A stretch of 39,576 nt of DNA from Armatimonadetes bacterium 55-13 (GTDB taxonomy: Bacteria > Armatimonadota > Fimbriimonadia > Fimbriimonadales > Fimbriimonadaceae): assembly GCA_001898035.1 (NCBI GenBank), contig MKRX01000005.1, positions 134,130 through 173,705 on the forward strand, written 5' to 3'. The position numbers and the translations under genes are program-made. The notes below the pieces were generated by a model that was not told the DNA's origin, searched no databases, and saw nothing but the letters and a program-made list of their open reading frames with translations. Each line of letters opens with the position of its first letter. The first letter of the stretch is position 1. Shown here piece after piece: positions 12,839 to 22,974 of the stretch.

Positions 12839-14446
12839 GTGCGAATTCCGTTTGACAGCTTTACCTTGGCTGCGGTAGTCCGAGATCTCCAAGACTTTAT
12901 CGGGGCCAAGGTTCAAAAGATCAGCCAGCCTTCCGACCGTACTGTCGTGCTGGAGATTTATGGTGGCGCAGGGCAGGCTTACTTATTGCTGTCCAGTGAT
13001 CCTCAATTCGCGCGGGTTCATTTCACCACGAAGAAGCCCAACAACCCTGACCGGCCCCCGCAGTTTTGTACGGCGCTTCGGTCTCGTCTTTCGGTGTCTC
13101 GAATCGTTGGGGCAAGGCAGATAGGATTCGACCGAATTCTTCAGATAGATTTTGAGACACCAGAGGGCGAACACTATCTTGTTGCAGAACTGATGGGGAA
13201 ACATTCAAACCTCATCCTGCTTGATGGCGCACGCAAAATCGTCGGTGCGTCGAGGTGGGTAGGGAAACATCTGAGCGCGAGACCGATTCAAGCCGGCGCA
13301 AAGTACGTTCCCCCTCCCTTTGAACCCAAGCCTAGTCTATTGACGGCAATCGAAGGTCAAGATCTTAGGGGTTTGGAAGGAGCGTCCCCGTTTCTCTTGC
13401 GACTCATTGAGGGACTCGGGCCGGGAGGGTTGGCAAAAATCCAAGATGCCGTCCGAACAGGGCGCTACCACCCCATACTTGCGACCGGGCATGGGGCCTA
13501 TCCCGTTTCAGTGGCATGCTTGGGTCTTGAAGAACAGGCCAAACCGTCTATCGGTATTGCGCTGGAGCAGCACTATGATCGAGCGATTCCGGCTGCTGAA
13601 GCAGACGCGCTCAAAACATCTCTTCGGGGCCAGTTACAAAGGGTCATCTTAGCCCGAGAGGCAGCCCTTTCCGATCTCGATCAAGCAATTTCAGCAGGAG
13701 AGGGGGCCGGGAAGTGGCAGATTCAAGGCGAGCTTGTCTTGGCGTATGGTCCAGGCTCAGCTGAAGGTTCGCACTCCCTTGATGCTTGGGACTATGCTGG
13801 CAACCCTGTGGTCATTAAACTTGATCCGGACCTTTCCTATAAGGAAAACGCGAACCGGTTTTTCGATAAAGCAAGACGAGCCAAGGCCAGGCTTTCGACC
13901 GTTAAGGACCAGAGGGAACGGCTGGGGCAAGATCTGCTGGATCTACTTGCCTTTGTTACGGACTTAGAGAATCGAGAGCGGCTAGGTGAGGTACGCGCCA
14001 TGGTCGAGGAGGCCAGAGCGAGGCGGTGGTTACACAAGCGGCCGGCCGCCTCAACCAAGAAAGAGGACCGCCCGTTCGAGGGGCATCGGATTCGGGAATT
14101 GCTTGGACCAGGAGGGGTTACAGTTCTTTATGGAGAAAATGCGGAGAGCAACGACTACCTGACTCTTCGGGTGGCCAAGCCGAACGATATATGGCTTCAC
14201 GTGAGAGGCTCAATCTCCGCTCACGTCGTTATTCAAACGGGCAACCAACCCGACAAAGTCCAAAAGGAATCGCTCCTTTTTGCCGCGAAAATCGCCGTTC
14301 AGAATTCTCCAAGCAAACACTCGGGATACGTACCCGTGGATTACACGCTCAAGAAGTATGTCCGTAAACCCAAGGGAGCGCCCAAGGGGACGGCGCTCTA
14401 TACGCACGAAAAGACGCTCAACGTGGACCTTGATCGTCAAAGTTGA
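12839..14446 (+). CDS. rqcH: NFACT family ribosome quality-control protein RqcH
   Basis: A 535-residue NFACT protein, the bacterial counterpart of Rqc2, formerly annotated as fibronectin-binding protein. The family binds stalled 50S subunits and recruits alanine tRNA to tag incomplete chains. The NFACT-N domain starts at the N-terminus (FDSFTLAAVVRDLQDFIGAK, and AELMGKHSNLILLD near residue 118-131). A coiled-coil middle part (about 340-400) follows. The NFACT-R domain at the end carries NDIWLHVRGSISAHVVI (about 442-458) and GTALYTHEKTLNVDLD. The start is a GTG with a weak TACAAC hexamer 6 nt upstream and no ribosome binding site. It ends in a 10-base convergent overlap with glnD. The window also holds smpB for the trans-translation rescue route. 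Confidence 0.9.
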   Translation: MRIPFDSFTLAAVVRDLQDFIGAKVQKISQPSDRTVVLEIYGGAGQAYLLLSSDPQFARVHFTTKKPNNPDRPPQFCTALRSRLSVSRIVGARQIGFDRILQIDFETPEGEHYLVAELMGKHSNLILLDGARKIVGASRWVGKHLSARPIQAGAKYVPPPFEPKPSLLTAIEGQDLRGLEGASPFLLRLIEGLGPGGLAKIQDAVRTGRYHPILATGHGAYPVSVACLGLEEQAKPSIGIALEQHYDRAIPAAEADALKTSLRGQLQRVILAREAALSDLDQAISAGEGAGKWQIQGELVLAYGPGSAEGSHSLDAWDYAGNPVVIKLDPDLSYKENANRFFDKARRAKARLSTVKDQRERLGQDLLDLLAFVTDLENRERLGEVRAMVEEARARRWLHKRPAASTKKEDRPFEGHRIRELLGPGGVTVLYGENAESNDYLTLRVAKPNDIWLHVRGSISAHVVIQTGNQPDKVQKESLLFAAKIAVQNSPSKHSGYVPVDYTLKKYVRKPKGAPKGTALYTHEKTLNVDLDRQS

Positions 14447-16809
14447 GGCCGAAGGACTCGGTCAATCTCGTCGATTGCGACAATATCTCCGTGCTCTCCG
14501 ACGATGTAGAAAGTTGCAGCACCGGAATCTGCCCACTGTCCAACTCTTGCGGCCAAGATGTTCCAGCCTTGGCGAGCAATCAAGCGGCTGAATCGATAGG
14601 GCATACCTCGCCCTCTTGGAGCGCGGATCTCAAGTACCCCCGGGGGACCAGCGCTGTATGAGTAGGTGAAGATCTCCTGATCCCGCGCGGGGTCCTTTCC
14701 GCGCTCCAGCAAAATCGTTTCCGTAGCGCGGTTTCCTCTGAGAACCTCGAGGATCGCGTTCGATACGCTCGCCCGGGTTGCCGCCGGAACGGGACGACTG
14801 CCAAAGCTGACAGTGAAAGTGTCCAGCGCGACCGGCGTTGGGCTTTCGGTTGTGCAAGCCCGGATACCGCCAACGCTAAGGTCAAAGGCATACAACACTC
14901 CAAGGAGCCTGCTTAACAATCCTGGCTCGTCGCGAGCGGATACGGTGAACTCGGTTGCCCCGAGATCCGGTTGGGAAAAAGTCTCGACTGTGGGCTCGCC
15001 ATTTTCTGCCTTCCTTACCAGCTGAAAGTGGAGTTTGACGAGGTTCGGCGGTGTGCTCGCTAAGTAATAGGGAGGGAGAGATTCGACGAATCGTTGGAGA
15101 TCATCCGGTGGAACGTCTTCACGCAGTTGTCGCATGAGTCTCTGGCGTTGTTGGGCAGCGTCGAACGGAATTGGATTGGCAGCTTCGAGCAGGTCAGCTG
15201 TGCGACGGTGTAGCTCCTGAGTAAACGTCTCAAGCGCGGCGGTCCAAGCCTCCGGGGCGACTGCGTTGACATCGGCCCATGACAGAATCGTGAGAAGATC
15301 GAGGCGATCGCGATTCTTAACGATCCCAGCGAATTCGCTGATCGAATCTGGGTTGTAAATGTCTCGTAGCCGAACGAATCGCATCATCGTGAGGTGTTCT
15401 TGAACCAACCACACCACCGTTTCCCTCAATTCGGATGAAACATTCCAACGACGGCAAATATCCAGTGACATTTCGGCGCCCAATTCGCTATGCGAGCGGT
15501 CAGGATCGATTTTGCCTATGTCGTGGAGTAACGCGGCAAGGTACAGGGGCTCAAGGTCATGGATATTTTCACGAATTTCGTTTATCCATGGAGTCTCCTT
15601 GGCTCGATCTAGCCATCGAACCAGTTGAAGCGTGTGCTCGTAGACCGTAAAGCGATGGACGTTGTCCCGTGGCATCAGCGTACGGCATGCCGTCAACTCT
15701 GGGATCAGATGTTGAAGCAGGCCAGCGCGATCTAGATTTCGTAAGGTGGCTTCTCCCGTTGAAATTGCGTACACGGCGGCAGGGCCGCTTACATGAGATC
15801 CAACCAAAACCGGGAGATCGGAAACTCGTAATCCGAGGGCTGTCGCAATGCTCACTCCAACGGCGGATTCGCCGGCATCCGCATCACCGGCAATTCGAGC
15901 CTCGCCTCGTAGGGCGATGACGTTCTTCGACAAGGGAAATCGAGCCTCAAGAAGCTTATCTTTGGCTTCCAGGTATTCGGCGTGAACTTCATTTGCCGCG
16001 ATAGCGATGTCGCTCATCATCTCATAGGAGTCTTGCCTGGAAATCTCCGCCATTTGTTCCTGGCGCGATCGTGTGAGTTGATCTTGGGGTTTGCCAGCGA
16101 GGGCGTGGAGAAGGTTGCGGGCTCGAACCAATCGCTCAAACGATTTGGTAGGCCTTGCTTCTTGTTCCCCGATGGCATTTCTGAGCCAATTGGCGCAATG
16201 GAAACAACGCATGCCTCCGGCTCCTTCTTTGAGTTGAGGCTCCACGACGAGGGGCGTATCGTGGAATTTTGCAAATGCCGCCTCTCGCTCTCTGATTTTT
16301 TCTAGAATGAATTCACCGGGAGAGAGCGTAGCACTCAGCTCATCCAGTAAGGATTGGTAGATATCGTGGGGGCCGACAACCAGGCGGGCGTCCATGAGAC
16401 CCGTTCTCGATTTGCCGTCGAGGCCGGGAGCGTCCGCGATCAACCGATAGGCGTATCCAACACCAAGCTTCAAGATGGTGCCAACCGAAGTGTGCAACTC
16501 TTGAAAAAACGCGCGAATTGCCCTGTCCATTTCGATCGACTTGTCGTCGGTTGGTACGACAGTGATATCGATATCCGAATAGGGCGACATTTCTTTCCGG
16601 CCGTAGCCCCCGGTTGCCACAACGGCAAGTGTGCTCATCACGGGGTGGTCGGCAAGTACCGCGCGATAGGTTTGAAGAATGACCTGATCAATGAGTTCCG
16701 AGTGTTCTCGGCACCAAGCGAGTCCCGTTGGCGAGGTTTTGAGACGTTCAATCAGCCCAAGGCGTGTCTCCGCTAGTTCTTCGATTCGGACCCTGATCTC
16801 CTCAGTCAT
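14437..16809 (-). CDS. glnD: Bifunctional uridylyltransferase / uridylyl-removing enzyme GlnD
   Basis: A 790-residue protein with the GlnD domain order. The nucleotidyltransferase signature GGYGRKEMSPYSDIDI (about 67-82) keeps both metal aspartates. A helical GlnD linker region follows, then an HD domain (LAALLHDIGK, HD at about 429-430, then SHSELGAEM). Two C-terminal ACT domains come last: the first clear (FTVSARDEPGLLSRLL, about 622-690), the second less canonical (VLEIRAPRGRGMPYRFSRL, about 726-790). GlnD adds and removes UMP on PII proteins in response to glutamine. No PII or glutamine synthetase gene lies in the window. It starts 5 bp after the membrane-protein gene of the ECF sigma operon, so it appears to be transcribed with it. 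That arrangement is unusual. Confidence 0.92.
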   Translation of the reverse strand: MTEEIRVRIEELAETRLGLIERLKTSPTGLAWCREHSELIDQVILQTYRAVLADHPVMSTLAVVATGGYGRKEMSPYSDIDITVVPTDDKSIEMDRAIRAFFQELHTSVGTILKLGVGYAYRLIADAPGLDGKSRTGLMDARLVVGPHDIYQSLLDELSATLSPGEFILEKIREREAAFAKFHDTPLVVEPQLKEGAGGMRCFHCANWLRNAIGEQEARPTKSFERLVRARNLLHALAGKPQDQLTRSRQEQMAEISRQDSYEMMSDIAIAANEVHAEYLEAKDKLLEARFPLSKNVIALRGEARIAGDADAGESAVGVSIATALGLRVSDLPVLVGSHVSGPAAVYAISTGEATLRNLDRAGLLQHLIPELTACRTLMPRDNVHRFTVYEHTLQLVRWLDRAKETPWINEIRENIHDLEPLYLAALLHDIGKIDPDRSHSELGAEMSLDICRRWNVSSELRETVVWLVQEHLTMMRFVRLRDIYNPDSISEFAGIVKNRDRLDLLTILSWADVNAVAPEAWTAALETFTQELHRRTADLLEAANPIPFDAAQQRQRLMRQLREDVPPDDLQRFVESLPPYYLASTPPNLVKLHFQLVRKAENGEPTVETFSQPDLGATEFTVSARDEPGLLSRLLGVLYAFDLSVGGIRACTTESPTPVALDTFTVSFGSRPVPAATRASVSNAILEVLRGNRATETILLERGKDPARDQEIFTYSYSAGPPGVLEIRAPRGRGMPYRFSRLIARQGWNILAARVGQWADSGAATFYIVGEHGDIVAIDEIDRVLRPQL

Positions 16810-16814
16810 ATCTT

Positions 16815-18395
16815 TTACAGGCCAACGTAATATGTTGGCTCGTTTTCAACCAGGCTCTTCAATATCGGCTGGGCTTGGTCCTCGAAATAGATGCAGATGG
16901 GGGTTGCCACAACGGTAAAAACCAGCCCCATAGTGAGAAGCATCGAACCAAACATTTTCAAACCTTCGGTCAACACCACGGCCGTTCGTATGTGCTGAGC
17001 GAAGGCCCAGAGCGGGGAGATCAAGTAGAGCATACACAAGACAAGCAAACTCAAACCCGCCAGAAGATCTGCGTTTGAGAATAAGTCGATTTGCATATTG
17101 AATGCCTCTATGTTAGCCACAACCGGTATCGTGCGACTCAAAAAGAACAAACTCGTTAGTAACAGGAACGAGGGCGCCAACATGAGGTTTGCAAACGTAA
17201 ACAGCGGCCCTAGCCCCTCGGGAGGTTTTCGCCGTGTGAACTTGGGCCTGACTGCGATGAATCCGCACGCGAGTCCAGAAGCGGCAAACGCCAAGATCGA
17301 ATGCGTCAAGTAAAGGATAAGGCCGGAAGAAAGAAGTCCCAGGGTGAGTGCCAAGGAAAGGAACGCTCTTTCGCTTTGCCCTGACACATATTTCATCAGA
17401 AGACTGAGCCGAGTGATGAGGAAGCCAATTCCTGCAACCATCAAGATTGCGCCAGGCAGCGCGGGTATGACGCTGCTTTGAAAAGTTAAATAGGCGGCAT
17501 TCTCCTCGGTGTCCTCGCGCTGGGAGAGCGCGCTCCAAGCATCGTTATTGTTATAAATCTCCTGGACTCGGTTCGCCTGATCGATCATCTTCTGAGACTT
17601 CAGAGCTTCTTTGAAATCTGAGTGAGCAATGAGCAACCGCTTGATGCTTGTCTCGCTGCGAAGCTCTTTTGGGTGAGAAGCAATTTCAACAATGGCGATT
17701 CCGGATCGCATGATCGCCAAACTTCGGCTCCCTTCCCGCATGAGCGCGCCGTTTAACATGGTTGCGTAGCGCAGCTCCAGCTCGGATTTAGACTCAACTT
17801 TCAGGCCGGTCGCCGTTGGCTCGGGGGGGCCGATTGCCATGATGAGGTCACGGACATACGATTCAACGAGTCGAGAAAACGCTACCGATCGAAAGCGGTA
17901 GACGTAAGCGAATTGCCAAGCGCCCGGAAAGAACTGGGAGCCGATTTCTTTCCGAATCATGTCAAGGCGATTAGATTGCTGATCGTTATAGATGAGGCAT
18001 CGGGCAGCGGAAAGCCATTCGGCGCGAGCAGCGTTCGAGTTTCCATCTGCGTTCAGGAACACGGTTCTGGCGAATCGCCAGAAGGCGTTTTGAGGGTCTT
18101 TCTTTTGCCAACTGGCAGAAAGATTGGCTAAAGCAGTCAGCTCTTTCCGCGTCAGGGGTTCTCGCGCGGCGAGTTTTTCTGCCGCCACGTGAATCCACAT
18201 GCTTGCATTAAGTGGAGTTGTGGGATCGGGTAGCGCCTTGGGGAATGGACCGGGCAAATTGGTCTTTGCACGGATGGCCGGGTTCTTCGAGAATTCAAAT
18301 GCGCCTAAGATAAACGGACGCGACCGAGGGTGGACAATCAGGGTGAGGATAGAACCAAGGAGAGCCCCATAAAGGGCCCTCATCAACGGGGTCAT
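16815..18395 (-). CDS. Polytopic membrane protein of unknown function in an ECF sigma operon
   Basis: A 526-residue protein without a recognised family. One hydrophobic segment lies at the N-terminus (about 8-22). A long soluble part of about 270 residues follows, which is helical and rich in Ala, Arg and Glu and may contain TPR-like repeats (NAFWRFARTVFLNADGN, NAARAEWLSAARCLI). The C-terminal half has about six membrane segments (SSVIPALPGAILMVAGIGFL to LTMGLVFTVVATPICIYF). The topology predicts a large extracytoplasmic sensor-like domain anchored at both ends. Its ATG overlaps the anti-sigma stop by 4 bases and glnD starts 5 bp after its stop, so all four genes are coupled. A role in sensing for the sigma/anti-sigma pair is an inference from position only. 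Confidence 0.8.
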   Translation of the reverse strand: MTPLMRALYGALLGSILTLIVHPRSRPFILGAFEFSKNPAIRAKTNLPGPFPKALPDPTTPLNASMWIHVAAEKLAAREPLTRKELTALANLSASWQKKDPQNAFWRFARTVFLNADGNSNAARAEWLSAARCLIYNDQQSNRLDMIRKEIGSQFFPGAWQFAYVYRFRSVAFSRLVESYVRDLIMAIGPPEPTATGLKVESKSELELRYATMLNGALMREGSRSLAIMRSGIAIVEIASHPKELRSETSIKRLLIAHSDFKEALKSQKMIDQANRVQEIYNNNDAWSALSQREDTEENAAYLTFQSSVIPALPGAILMVAGIGFLITRLSLLMKYVSGQSERAFLSLALTLGLLSSGLILYLTHSILAFAASGLACGFIAVRPKFTRRKPPEGLGPLFTFANLMLAPSFLLLTSLFFLSRTIPVVANIEAFNMQIDLFSNADLLAGLSLLVLCMLYLISPLWAFAQHIRTAVVLTEGLKMFGSMLLTMGLVFTVVATPICIYFEDQAQPILKSLVENEPTYYVGL

Positions 18396-18841
18396 CGAAT
18401 TCTATCGAGCTTGTTAATATCTAGCGTCGGCAATCGCTCGCCGCGAGTACGGTAAGCCGTGCCTTCAGGCCGATTTGAAGAGGGTAGAGAAGGTCGGTTG
18501 GGAACCAACTGAAGTGTGGCTAGAACGGCAAGGCCAGCAATCATGGCTCCCACAAATGCCGGACTCCAATAACGAACCGACTCTCGGGTCGACTGAACTC
18601 GCAGTTTGCGAAGAATTCTTTCTTCGAACTGAGGCTCAAACGAATCCTGAACTTCATCGTCGAATGCTGCCATTCTGAGCATGTTCAGCGCATTCGAACT
18701 CTGACTCTCTCGCATCCGGCACTCAGAACAGACCGACCGATGCTTGGCGAGGAATTCTCTCTCCGCTAGGCTCAACGTGCGATCAAACTTCTCGTTTGAA
18801 AGTCGCTGGTATTTCGAGCATCCAAAAAGTCTTACGCTCAC
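18392..18841 (-). CDS. Zinc-binding anti-sigma factor with one membrane segment
   Basis: About 149 residues. The HxxxCxxC signature of zinc anti-sigma (ZAS) domains is present as KHRSVCSECRM, preceded by a helix (TLSLAEREFLA). A single hydrophobic segment follows (WSPAFVGAMIAGLAVLATLQLV), then a short tail outside. The upstream Cys in FGCSKYQ could be the fourth zinc ligand. The protein should hold the ECF sigma factor encoded just upstream at the membrane. I chose the GTG at 18841 because it overlaps the sigma stop codon as GTGA, the coupling expected for sigma/anti-sigma pairs. A start at 18862 would add seven residues. The stop overlaps the next gene as ATGA. Confidence 0.82.
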   Translation of the reverse strand: MSVRLFGCSKYQRLSNEKFDRTLSLAEREFLAKHRSVCSECRMRESQSSNALNMLRMAAFDDEVQDSFEPQFEERILRKLRVQSTRESVRYWSPAFVGAMIAGLAVLATLQLVPNRPSLPSSNRPEGTAYRTRGERLPTLDINKLDRIR

Positions 18842-19413
18842 TCGCCCACCGCCTCGATCCACAGCTTCCTGAATCGCTCGCGAGCAGTATGAAGTCGTGA
18901 CCGGACGGTACCAATGGGGACGTGCATGACTTCAGCAACTTCGTCGTAGCTAAGCTGCTCCATCTCGCGAAGCACGAGAGTGGCGCGCAATTCGTAGGGA
19001 AGTTGAGCAAGTAGCTTCTCGATGACGACCCGATTTTCAACGGTTCCACCCTCGTGAGGCTGAACAGAATCGAACTCTGTGAGCTCGGCCCGTTTCAGTC
19101 GCAATCGGTCCATACACAGACGGACGCATATCTTATAAAGGTAGCCGGAGAAGGCGCGGTCTTCGCGAAGTTTGTGGATTTCCCTAAAGCCCTTTAGGAA
19201 GGCCTCTTGAGCGACGTCTTCAGCCTCGTGGCGGTCCCGCAAAAGATTCGTGGCGGTTCTCACCAGTCGATTGCGATGACGGGCTATCAGTGAACTCAGC
19301 GCCGTTTCGTCGCCTTCGCGACATCGGGCGACCCACTGCCGCTCCTGTGCCGCCTGATCAACGGCCGCTCCGGAAAAAACTCGCGTATCGAACATAGCTT
19401 GTACTTGTGACAC
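18838..19413 (-). CDS. ECF-type RNA polymerase sigma factor
   Basis: A group IV sigma factor of about 191 residues with only regions 2 and 4. Region 2 includes NLLRDRHEAEDVAQEAFLKG and the FSGYLYKICVRLCMDRLR segment. Region 4 ends with LSYDEVAEVMHVPIGTVRSR, the helix-turn-helix that reads the -35 box. The frame is open to a GTG at 19425, but a group IV-type promoter (GAACTT/CGTC) lies at 19426-19451 and would start transcription inside that extension. The GTG at 19413 or the ATG at 19395 is therefore more likely. The next three genes (anti-sigma, membrane protein, glnD) follow with overlaps or a 5-bp gap and form one operon. Confidence 0.92.
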   Translation of the reverse strand: MSQVQAMFDTRVFSGAAVDQAAQERQWVARCREGDETALSSLIARHRNRLVRTATNLLRDRHEAEDVAQEAFLKGFREIHKLREDRAFSGYLYKICVRLCMDRLRLKRAELTEFDSVQPHEGGTVENRVVIEKLLAQLPYELRATLVLREMEQLSYDEVAEVMHVPIGTVRSRLHTARERFRKLWIEAVGE

Positions 19414-19425
19414 GTCATTGTACAC

Positions 19426-19451
19426 GACGGGTCCGCAATCGGGATAAGTTC
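19426..19451 (-). promoter_or_regulatory. Candidate autoregulatory ECF promoter of the sigma/anti-sigma/glnD operon
   Basis: The minus strand reads GAACTT (19451-19446), then 16 nt, then CGTC (19429-19426). GAAC at -35 and CGTC at -10 are typical elements of many ECF promoters. The element sits directly upstream of the sigma gene, and a related GAAC/CGTC pair precedes the second ECF gene in this window. I infer autoregulation. Confidence 0.5.
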
Positions 19452-19481
19452 ATTTCCCAAGCCCAGCATAAATGTGAACGG

Positions 19482-19487
19482 TAAAAT
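19482..19487 (+). promoter_or_regulatory. Candidate -10 element of the leaderless lptD transcript
   Basis: TAAAAT is followed by 8 nt and then the lptD ATG. There is no ribosome binding site and no clear -35. Confidence 0.45.
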
Positions 19488-19495
19488 ACCGGCAA

Positions 19496-21082
19496 ATGCC
19501 GTTCTTCTGGCTCCCTGCGCCTCCTTCGATTCCCCTTTCGGATGTGGCGCAAGCGAGCAAACCCCAGCTTTCCGCTTACGGAGAAGAACTTAAAGTCGAT
19601 GGAAAGGTCCGAGAAATCGATCTTGAACGGAAAGTCGAGGTCTATCGTGACGGAGTAGTTGCCACCTTTGGGCCGACGGTCATCAAGGCGGATCGACTAG
19701 AACTCCACTATGCGGAGAATGAACAGTTTGGGATAGCCACGGGGAATGTCCATCTGGACGATCCCGAAGGTCAGCTCGATGCTCATTCCATCACTTTCTG
19801 GTGGGGAAAGACAAAGGGACCGGATGGCCAAATAGCCGTAGCTGACAATGTTTTACTCAAAGTTGGAAATATTACGGGCCGGGCGGAATATGCCTCGATA
19901 AAACCGGATCGCTGGGAGTTTACGAATGTCGATGGCACGAGTTGTCGTAGACCTCTGCCTCTTTACAGCATCCATTCCAAGAAGGTCGTGTTTGAACCGG
20001 GGCGACAAGGCACGATCGTACAGCCGAGAATTACGATCCTTGGCAAGGATCTGGTGACGATTCCGACCCGGCGCTTCTCGCTAGACAAGCGAAGCGAGGG
20101 AATTCAATATCCGGCCGTTTCTTACCGATCGGGACTTGGACTAAGCTGGTCCAGTTCCCTTCTGTTCCGTGATCGCGACCTCTACCGTGCCGACGTGAGC
20201 AGCTTCCCGCACGAATTGCCGACCTACGGACTTGCTTATGCTCACTCTTTTCTGCCGGTTGACGCCTCAACCGCTAAGATTCTTCCGAGGTCCGAACTTG
20301 CCGAACGATTCGCCTGGTCCTACTTCGATGATGTCAGGGTTGAGAACATCGAAACATCTACATCTTTTGCCACCAAGCGTCGCAGCACTTTGAGCGCCCA
20401 AACGCAGTGGAATTCCGGCAGTTCTGCGCGGCTGGACGGCGAGCGGCTTTCCAAGGCATTGGAAGTCATCTACGAAGAGAGCGGACCGGCAATGGCAGGC
20501 GGCCTCTTCTGGCAGGCGCGTGCACAGTCGATCCGAAAGGACGACGATCCATTTATCACTCGAGCGGTTTTGAACGCCACTTACCAACTCCCTTCCTTCA
20601 AATTTGGTCGCCGGATCATGACTGATGTAAGACTGGATGGTTCAGGAACCTTGAGCGAGCATGGAACGTTTGGATGGGCAAGAGCGCAGTTAGGGCTCCT
20701 GTATCGTCCTACTTCCTTTCTCAATTTGGGAGGTGCATTCGTCTTTGCGGGAGAAGCTGGCAATCGCGATTTTATCTCGGATTCGCTCTACTCAAAGAAC
20801 GCTTTACACTTGAGAGGCGATATTAATCTTGGTCCTACTAAAATAAGTTATTTGGCTAAGTATGATTACGGGAGAAATCTTTGGTATGACAAAGAGTTTT
20901 CACTGAGTCAGGTAGTGGGATGCTTGGAACCCTACTTGACGCGTCGAGAGTTTCCAAAGACTTATGTGATAGGCATCCGGCTACGTCTAGGCGAATTCTT
21001 AGATCCTCTGCAAAGAAGAAAACAGGTAAGGACCAAGGAACCGACAAAGCAGATCATTAGCGAAGCGAAGAAAACACCATGA
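19496..21082 (+). CDS. LptD/OstA-like outer-membrane LPS transport protein, short form
   Basis: A 528-residue protein that looks like a reduced LptD. Residues about 30-150 form an OstA (LptA-like) jellyroll with repeating strands such as VVATFGPTVIKADRLELHY and EGQLDAHSITFW. Here each strand pair fits the pattern of lipopolysaccharide-bridge proteins. The rest (about 200-500) alternates polar and aromatic strands ending in TYVIGIRLRLG, as in an outer-membrane barrel. Proteobacterial LptD is about 780 residues, so the barrel is shorter here. The N-terminus (MPFFWLPAPPSIPLSDVAQA) is a poor but possible signal. The gene's end overlaps the debranching-enzyme start by 4 bases. Presence of LptD-like protein argues for an outer membrane. 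Other Lpt genes are not in the window. Confidence 0.75.
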   Translation: MPFFWLPAPPSIPLSDVAQASKPQLSAYGEELKVDGKVREIDLERKVEVYRDGVVATFGPTVIKADRLELHYAENEQFGIATGNVHLDDPEGQLDAHSITFWWGKTKGPDGQIAVADNVLLKVGNITGRAEYASIKPDRWEFTNVDGTSCRRPLPLYSIHSKKVVFEPGRQGTIVQPRITILGKDLVTIPTRRFSLDKRSEGIQYPAVSYRSGLGLSWSSSLLFRDRDLYRADVSSFPHELPTYGLAYAHSFLPVDASTAKILPRSELAERFAWSYFDDVRVENIETSTSFATKRRSTLSAQTQWNSGSSARLDGERLSKALEVIYEESGPAMAGGLFWQARAQSIRKDDDPFITRAVLNATYQLPSFKFGRRIMTDVRLDGSGTLSEHGTFGWARAQLGLLYRPTSFLNLGGAFVFAGEAGNRDFISDSLYSKNALHLRGDINLGPTKISYLAKYDYGRNLWYDKEFSLSQVVGCLEPYLTRREFPKTYVIGIRLRLGEFLDPLQRRKQVRTKEPTKQIISEAKKTP

Positions 21083-22974
21083 CATATCGGCTCGGCGAGC
21101 AACAATGCGGCAACCTCGAGGGATCCACGAAGCGAGAATGGCTCCTTACGAACGGAATCGGGGGATACGCCATGGGGACACCGAGTGGAATAAATACTCG
21201 TCGCTACCACGGGCACTTGATTGCAGCAATTCACCCGCCCGCTGACAGAATGGTTCTGCTTGCCGCAATGGATGCCTTCATCCAGGGAGATGCTCATCCA
21301 GTGGGTGTCTCAGCCAATCAATACCCAGGGGCAATCTTTCCAGAAGGGCAGCACTATCTCAAGGAATTCTCGGTTGGTAAGTCTGCAAAATGGCATTACG
21401 TGGCCAGCCATCTTGAACTGGAGAAGTGCCTCTACCTGCATCGAGGGGTTAACGCTTGCACATTACGATATCGAAACGTTGGGAAGGCTCCGTTCCTGTT
21501 AACTCTCCGCCCGTTCGTTTGCCATAAGCCGCATCATGAAAATTTTATCGAGCAAGCCGGATATCCAGAACAGACGCAGTTCCTCAAAGGACGAACCGTT
21601 ATCGAACATCATGGCGTGGCTCTTCACTGCTTGCATCCCGAAGCGCAGCGGGTTCCCGTCGAGGGTTGGTATTACCGCTTCGAACATCAAAGGGAAGCAG
21701 AACGAGGTTTGGACCCGCGGGATGATTTGTATTGTCCGTTCGAGTTGAAATACGAACTCTTGCCGGGAGAAGAAGCATCGTTGGCCTTTGGTGATCATGA
21801 GTCCATCGAACTCCAATCCATTCCAGAAGATGCCACTGCCAGTTCACCCGGGCTTTTGCCGCTTCTCGTATCGGCAGCCGATCCTCTCATCGTAGAAACG
21901 CAGAACCGTTCTTCAATCATCGCTGGCTATCCCTGGTTTACGGATTGGGGACGCGATACGATGATTTCGCTCCCGGGATTGTTGATTTTGACGGGAAGAA
22001 GCAACCAAGCCAAGAAGGTCTTGCTAGACTACGCCGCCCAATGCCGGGACGGGCTAATCCCCAATCGATTTGTGGAGTCTGGCGAAACGCCCGATTACAA
22101 CACCGTAGATGCGACCCTTTGGTTTGTTAATGCCGTGTTCAAGGTCCTCTCCTACGAGTGGGATGCGGATTTCGCTCGGGCTGTAGGCGGAACGTTAAGC
22201 GAGATTTTCGTTCGACACACCGAAGGAACTTTGTTTGGCATTCATGTCGATCCGGCGGATGGCCTCATTACGCAGGGGGAGCCAGGAGTTCAACTAACCT
22301 GGATGGATGCGAAGATCGGTGACTGGGTCGTCACACCCAGACACGGCAAGCCAGTTGAAATCAATGGGCTTTGGATCAGTGCGCTGCGTGCAATGGAATG
22401 GATTTTTGGAATGCTTGGTCAATCAACGGAACTCTTTGTGGCGGCAGCCGAGAAGGCAGAGAAGAGCTTCCATGAAAAGTTTTGGCACGAAGTCCGCGGT
22501 CATTACCTCGATACAGTTGATCCTGCCGACGCGTCGCTGCGTCCCAATCAATTGATCGCAATGGCGCTACCTTTTGGCCCCGCCACCGGAGAACAGGCCG
22601 AACGTGCCCTCGATGTGATATCGCGAAAGCTCTACACTCCGAGGGGAATGAGAACGTTAGCGCCCGACGAACCTGGATACATCGGGAGATACGAAGGCTC
22701 GATGAGGGACAGGGATGCAGCCTATCATCAAGGAACAGCGTGGCCGTGGTTGCTAGGCTCGTACGCTACGGCGTTGGTGCGAGTTAAAGGGGATCGTTTG
22801 GAAGCAAAGCGCGTGCTTCGTGAGATCAAGCAGATGGTGCAGGAATACGGCATGAACGGAATTGCCGAAGTTTACGATGGGGATGGACCTCAAAGACCTG
22901 GAGGATGTCCCTGGCAGGCCTGGAGCGTGGGGGAGATTCTGCGAGCTTGGGTTGAAGACGTTGGTGGAGACTAG
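21079..22974 (+). CDS. Glycogen debranching enzyme, amylo-alpha-1,6-glucosidase (GH133-like)
   Basis: A 631-residue enzyme that hydrolyses alpha-1,6 branch points of glycogen or maltodextrins. The N-terminal beta-rich domain begins with WLLTNGIGGYAMGTPSGINTRRYHG in two pieces (WLLTNGIGGYAMGT, about 22-35; NTRRYHGHLIAA, about 39-50), typical of the archaeal/bacterial debranching type. The (alpha/alpha)6 catalytic domain has YPWFTDWGRDTMISLPGLL (about 290-308), PDYNTVDATLWFVNAV, and GTAWPWLLGSY followed by GGCPWQAWSVGEILRA at the end. Length fits the family. Its start overlaps the lptD stop as ATGA, so it is co-translated with an envelope gene, an odd partner for a glycogen enzyme. Confidence 0.92.
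   Translation: MTYRLGEQQCGNLEGSTKREWLLTNGIGGYAMGTPSGINTRRYHGHLIAAIHPPADRMVLLAAMDAFIQGDAHPVGVSANQYPGAIFPEGQHYLKEFSVGKSAKWHYVASHLELEKCLYLHRGVNACTLRYRNVGKAPFLLTLRPFVCHKPHHENFIEQAGYPEQTQFLKGRTVIEHHGVALHCLHPEAQRVPVEGWYYRFEHQREAERGLDPRDDLYCPFELKYELLPGEEASLAFGDHESIELQSIPEDATASSPGLLPLLVSAADPLIVETQNRSSIIAGYPWFTDWGRDTMISLPGLLILTGRSNQAKKVLLDYAAQCRDGLIPNRFVESGETPDYNTVDATLWFVNAVFKVLSYEWDADFARAVGGTLSEIFVRHTEGTLFGIHVDPADGLITQGEPGVQLTWMDAKIGDWVVTPRHGKPVEINGLWISALRAMEWIFGMLGQSTELFVAAAEKAEKSFHEKFWHEVRGHYLDTVDPADASLRPNQLIAMALPFGPATGEQAERALDVISRKLYTPRGMRTLAPDEPGYIGRYEGSMRDRDAAYHQGTAWPWLLGSYATALVRVKGDRLEAKRVLREIKQMVQEYGMNGIAEVYDGDGPQRPGGCPWQAWSVGEILRAWVEDVGGD

Follow-up and report, generated by a model that had tools for sequence, protein, structure and literature searches.

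The window analysed here is a 39,576-nucleotide stretch of contig MKRX01000005.1 from Armatimonadetes bacterium 55-13, a member of the Fimbriimonadales, an order of little-studied soil bacteria. On its minus strand, between positions 14437 and 19425, lie genes in the order sigma factor, anti-sigma factor, membrane protein and glnD. The genes are tightly packed, as the first-pass annotation had described. The stop of the sigma gene and the start of the anti-sigma gene have GTGA in common, with the latter beginning at GTG 18841 (a start at 18862 marks only the longest open reading frame and was not used). ATGA at 18395–18392 is common to the anti-sigma stop and the membrane-protein start, and glnD begins at ATG 16809, 5 bp past the membrane-protein stop (TAA 16817–16815). 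A weak terminator-like hairpin at 18381–18360 of the minus strand, where the membrane-protein gene begins, could be due to chance. An NFACT gene is convergent to glnD, and an LptA/LptD-N-like gene (19496–21082, plus strand), divergent to sigma, lies outside the operon. Throughout the class Fimbriimonadia, the LptD-like gene and a glycogen-debranching-type gene (window 19496–22974) retain this divergent orientation to sigma.

Properties of the encoded proteins

The sigma gene (18838–19395, minus strand) encodes an ECF (group IV) sigma factor. Matches to Sigma70_r2 (1.4e-15) and Sigma70_r4_2 (8e-15) are both above cut-off and nothing lies between them, i.e. only regions 2 and 4 are present. The start had been placed at GTG 19425. 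ATG 19395, which gives a product of 185 aa, is probably the true start, because the GTG sits directly after the −10 element of the predicted promoter (CGTC, 19429–19426) and its frame has a TAG stop in the nearest relative (G009).

The product of the second gene (18392–18841, minus strand; 149 aa) shows the motif and topology of a membrane-anchored zinc-type (ZAS) anti-sigma factor, with HRSVCSEC (Hx3Cx2C) at residues 34–41 ahead of a single transmembrane segment (TM) at residues 95–113. It matches NF052368 at 2e-6 with 27.5 bits, below the cut-off of 50. Among relatives the Hx3Cx2C motif is found in 47 of 78 anti-sigma factors (81 less three mis-picked open reading frames), and from these sequences the zinc motif is judged dispensable; a YW.PA segment and the TM are retained in most. 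Five genomes have kept sigma and lost the membrane protein (G018, G022, G026, G031 and G032), and in these the anti-sigma factor is a 79–95 aa form without a TM (loci L058, L061, L064, L069 and L070). That the TM is gone where the membrane protein is gone points to a partnership of the two in the membrane. All five losses are in genus g5 and may represent one event. The short anti-sigma factor of G082, a genome 73% complete, was left out of this set.

The third gene (16815–18395, minus strand) encodes a polytopic membrane protein of a new family. It matched no Pfam or NCBIfam family, and Pfam scans of 22 membrane proteins from the class and 11 from outgroups also gave none. One sequence search of the PDB was empty; the other produced only weak matches, the best to a coiled-coil protein (E 0.028), with several TPR proteins at 0.3 or higher. 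In an alignment of 55 proteins, hydropathy and charge reveal TM1, a domain of 280 residues and then five hydrophobic stretches, one of which probably contains two helices, to give about six TMs after the domain. Positive loops, by the positive-inside rule, place the 280-residue domain on the extracytoplasmic side. Structure prediction from two sequences has it all-helical, although the model is unreliable (mean pLDDT 41.6). The suggestion that a membrane protein with a large soluble domain acts as the sensor is therefore plausible.

The glnD product (14437–16809, minus strand; 790 aa) matches PF08335 and has nucleotidyltransferase, HD and two ACT regions, and the catalytic motifs GG-GR...SD-D are intact. 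Its match to TIGR01693 (3.5e-98, 329.9 bits) is under the curated cut-off of 519.4. The protein is thus best described as a predicted, divergent GlnD, based on its domains and on co-occurrence with PII, and not as a certified TIGR01693 equivalog. The second ACT region of GlnD usually has a DRPGLL-type ligand motif. In the aligned GlnDs of the class this region (residues 722–771, window 14497–14646) is without it. A tie between this alteration and the operon was considered but dropped, since family f3, which is without the operon, has an altered region too. PF08335 matches on contig 27 were likewise considered as a second GlnD; they proved to be GlnE.

Promoter motifs and expression of glnD

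A predicted autoregulatory ECF promoter is found at 19426–19451 of the minus strand, with the −35 element GAACTT at 19451–19446 and the −10 element CGTC at 19429–19426. Between 14400 and 19500 the minus strand has no other match, strict or loose. In the class, 80 of 82 loci could be analysed, the other two being too short. The strict motif, GAAC-N17/18-CGTC, is upstream of sigma in 50 of the 80 loci (shuffle mean 0.62), and the loose motif, GAAC-N18/19-GTC, in 66 (shuffle mean 1.84). The strict motif was absent from the 200 bp upstream of glnD (0/81), the membrane gene (0/69), the anti-sigma gene (0/57) and the LptD-like gene (0/63); loose matches in the same regions numbered two, two, one and none, respectively. 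A scan of 14000–20000 for sigma-70-type promoters found none on the minus strand and one match on the plus strand, which is below the shuffle yield.

A separate strong promoter just before glnD had been named beforehand as a finding that would speak against co-regulation, and scans of the sequence detect no consensus promoter there. As the ECF motif precedes sigma and none precedes glnD, glnD is most likely transcribed from the sigma-autoregulated promoter. It should be pointed out that a vegetative −10-like TACAAT (19422–19417) directly follows the ECF −10 element, and therefore a housekeeping promoter may also act here, in which case glnD expression would be constitutive.

In the genome of strain 55-13, GAACTTN15-16CGTC is not enriched (30 matches versus 24 for a reversed control), and thus no wider regulon can be defined from the motif alone. 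Few of these 30 places lie between genes and shortly before a gene start; of those few, the sigma promoter is the clearest.

Distribution of the operon and of its parts

A survey of 113 genomes of the class Fimbriimonadia detected strong sigma orthologues in 82, the membrane protein in 73 and GlnD in 88, two of the latter not being real GlnD. Weaker sigma paralogues and GlnD matches that were HD-only or fragments (G012 and G072 included) were omitted before linkage was counted. Sixty-three genomes have both the sigma orthologue and GlnD. In 59 of these the genes are contiguous, in four (G003, G055, G058 and G092) they are on different contigs, and in none are they separated. Conservation of the four-gene order in relatives, a check named beforehand, is thus borne out in this class. 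By comparison, NFACT adjoins glnD in only 14 of 56 class loci, and for this reason the sigma–glnD linkage is considered to be beyond chance; the LptD-like gene adjoins sigma in 59 of 75. Overlaps of 4 bp are common at the junctions, i.e. 40 of 54 for membrane protein/glnD, 26 of 35 for anti-sigma/membrane protein and 24 of 44 for sigma/anti-sigma, where starts were picked nearest the previous stop, a procedure biased towards short gaps, though not towards −4 in particular.

That GlnD is normally not linked to ECF sigma factors, as had been remarked, is true outside the class. For 31 outgroup genomes, places were listed both for a sigma-like match and for GlnD; read by eye, the two are on different contigs in 28 and on one contig, but more than 300 kb apart, in three. 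Comparison of genomes indicates a linkage within the class that is real and old. That the order arose locally by chance or from faulty assembly is scarcely credible, as the same order is present in 59 genomes of two families, including the single-contig genomes G014, G069, G085 and G088. To call GlnD ‘locked’ into the operon is nevertheless too strong. The two genes are never shown separated in the 63 genomes that have both, but each survives alone: sigma without GlnD in 12 class genomes, and GlnD without sigma in G074, G076, G021 and family f3.

In many relatives the operon is longer. A TrkA_N gene and a TrkA_N/TrkA_C gene lie directly downstream, at distances of −3 to about +60 bp with one exception (485 in G002). 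Among loci with room for it, the TrkA pair is found in 32 of 54 that have sigma, membrane protein and glnD, and in 8 of 11 without glnD; it is also present at three of four loci without a recognised membrane match, at one cut-contig locus and at three loci without sigma. The count is too low for G111, where the membrane gene went unrecognised and the pair is visible. An example is at L120:9376–10496, and there are 46 further loci. The pair has been relocated in G071, G080 and G081, and nearby in G041, and no ECF motif precedes the first gene of the moved pairs (0/4). A search of the genome of strain 55-13 found no TrkA gene of the operon type, and from this comparison the pair is considered lost from the window's genus.

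The first three genes have a wider distribution. At 20 loci in other families of the phylum, chosen for the best sigma matches from the 40 outgroup genomes that had such a match, and several of them cut by contig ends, an anti-sigma-like open reading frame and a long membrane protein follow sigma in most cases. The outgroup membrane proteins match those of the class by tblastn in 15 of the 20 loci, and profile alignment supports homology of the two sets (hhalign 99.6%, E 1e-24 over 426 columns). The strict promoter is present in 14 of 20, and GlnD or TrkA in none of the 20. Within the class, sigma and the membrane protein are found without GlnD in 12 genomes, 11 of which are also without PII, the twelfth (G040) having a weak PII. 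These comparisons indicate that the trio is an ancient module of Armatimonadota, older and wider than the glnD linkage and independent of GlnD. In a tree of sigma and the membrane protein (55 rows), absence of GlnD amounts to five changes, and as only two of these are forced by well-supported branches, the number of GlnD losses is uncertain.

ECF operons of the RpoE/RseA and SigW/RsiW types have a single-TM zinc-type anti-sigma factor and an autoregulatory GAAC...CGTC promoter. The operon described here has an ECF sigma factor, an anti-sigma factor and a predicted promoter of the same types, but it also includes a seven-TM protein from a new family and, in the Fimbriimonadales, glnD and TrkA genes. 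With respect to the RseA/RseB/RseP pathway, the third gene here encodes a polytopic protein without a Pfam match.

GlnD, PII and the role of the operon

In Proteobacteria, GlnD, with nucleotidyltransferase, HD and two ACT regions, is part of a GlnD/PII/GlnE cascade. The genome of strain 55-13 likewise encodes a GlnD with these domains, a GlnE and a PII with the T-loop YRGSTY, whose tyrosine we take to be the modifiable site. It differs in that glnD is in an ECF operon and in that the second ACT region has no DRPGLL-type motif. A second PII gene (L039:7783–8121) is without the T-loop tyrosine and overlaps a small open reading frame of another family.

Within families f1 and f2, GlnD is associated with PII (70/0 versus 8/15, p = 6e-12, a value that ignores kinship), and none of 70 GlnD genomes is without PII. 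The association of GlnD with sigma is weak (p = 0.16, or 0.04 among the 75 genomes at least 90% complete, kinship again ignored). Six genomes have one PII but no GlnD (G018, G019, G024, G026, G031 and G032). The ECF motif is found at 1 of 36 PII genes of relatives in its strict form and at 2 of 36 in its loose form, about background, and therefore only through the position of glnD in the operon does the evidence extend to GlnD.

Collectively, the locus is a real, conserved and probably self-activating ECF operon that includes glnD. The reading we favour, and with good though not full confidence, is an autoregulated operon with a sensor membrane protein that co-induces glnD. The sigma factor would be held by the membrane-anchored anti-sigma factor. 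The polytopic protein would sense the envelope or turgor state via its large extracytoplasmic helical domain and control the anti-sigma factor through the membrane. Once freed, sigma would act at the GAAC-N18-CGTC promoter to transcribe the operon that encodes it. As the last cistron here (with two TrkA genes next in many relatives), glnD would be co-transcribed and so co-induced, and PII state may be affected. It appears that glnD joined the trio in the Fimbriimonadales and stays while the cell keeps PII.

The main rival is that GlnD is a mere passenger, under steady housekeeping transcription and controlled by glutamine alone, with gene order kept as the overlaps are costly to break. We rate this somewhat short of an even chance. 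Persistence of the trio where GlnD or PII is gone, retention of GlnD without sigma, the moved TrkA pairs devoid of the motif, its near absence from PII genes and the TATAAT-like element beside the ECF −10 all fit a passenger. Less easily accommodated is that glnD and sigma are never shown apart when both are present, yet NFACT is seldom the neighbour of glnD, and that the TrkA pair did move in three genomes while glnD was at no time seen to do so. The opposite extreme, a dedicated signalling link in which an envelope sensor exists to set PII modification, had been suggested by the first-pass annotation and is distinctly unlikely. The tight, conserved linkage, the intact GlnD catalytic motifs and the presence of GlnE and of one PII with the T-loop tyrosine agree with it. 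However, the trio occurs phylum-wide without GlnD, sensor, anti-sigma and sigma are retained in class genomes where GlnD is gone, nearly all of them without PII as well, and the PII genes are without the promoter. For the same reasons, GlnD is seen as either a conserved passenger in, or an output of, an envelope-signalling module that predates the linkage. Control of PII state by envelope signals is possible.

A more speculative proposal, to which we give a rather low probability, is that the operon ancestral to the Fimbriimonadales comprised sigma–anti-sigma–sensor–glnD–trkA–trkA, of which the window's genus kept only the nitrogen half. A sensor of envelope or turgor state, from a new protein family, would then, via an ECF sigma factor, raise both the PII-modifying enzyme and TrkA regulators, and so potassium uptake and the synthesis of glutamine and glutamate (the potassium–glutamate pool) would be set jointly at the cell surface. 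In Azospirillum brasilense, PII forms complexes with the potassium regulator TrkA (PMC7646526). The relatives' operon similarly joins glnD and two TrkA genes, but the tie is operon linkage here and protein interaction there, and the search of the strain 55-13 genome found no TrkA of this type. A study in E. coli discusses potassium next to sigma-E via EIIA-Ntr; the suppressor there turned out not to be trkA (PMC2215328). These published ties make the potassium–glutamate reading worth a test, and no more.

We found no description in the open-licence literature of the linkage of glnD to an ECF sigma operon. If true, the favoured reading, an ECF operon that co-induces glnD, would mean that a signal of the envelope type is wired directly, at the level of transcription, to the enzyme responsible for PII state. 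The analysis also brings to light an ECF module, as yet uncharacterised, that spans the phylum and has a membrane-protein family of its own. Because glnD and TrkA genes are paired in a conserved manner, the long-suspected connection of nitrogen status with potassium becomes amenable to testing in Fimbriimonas cultures.
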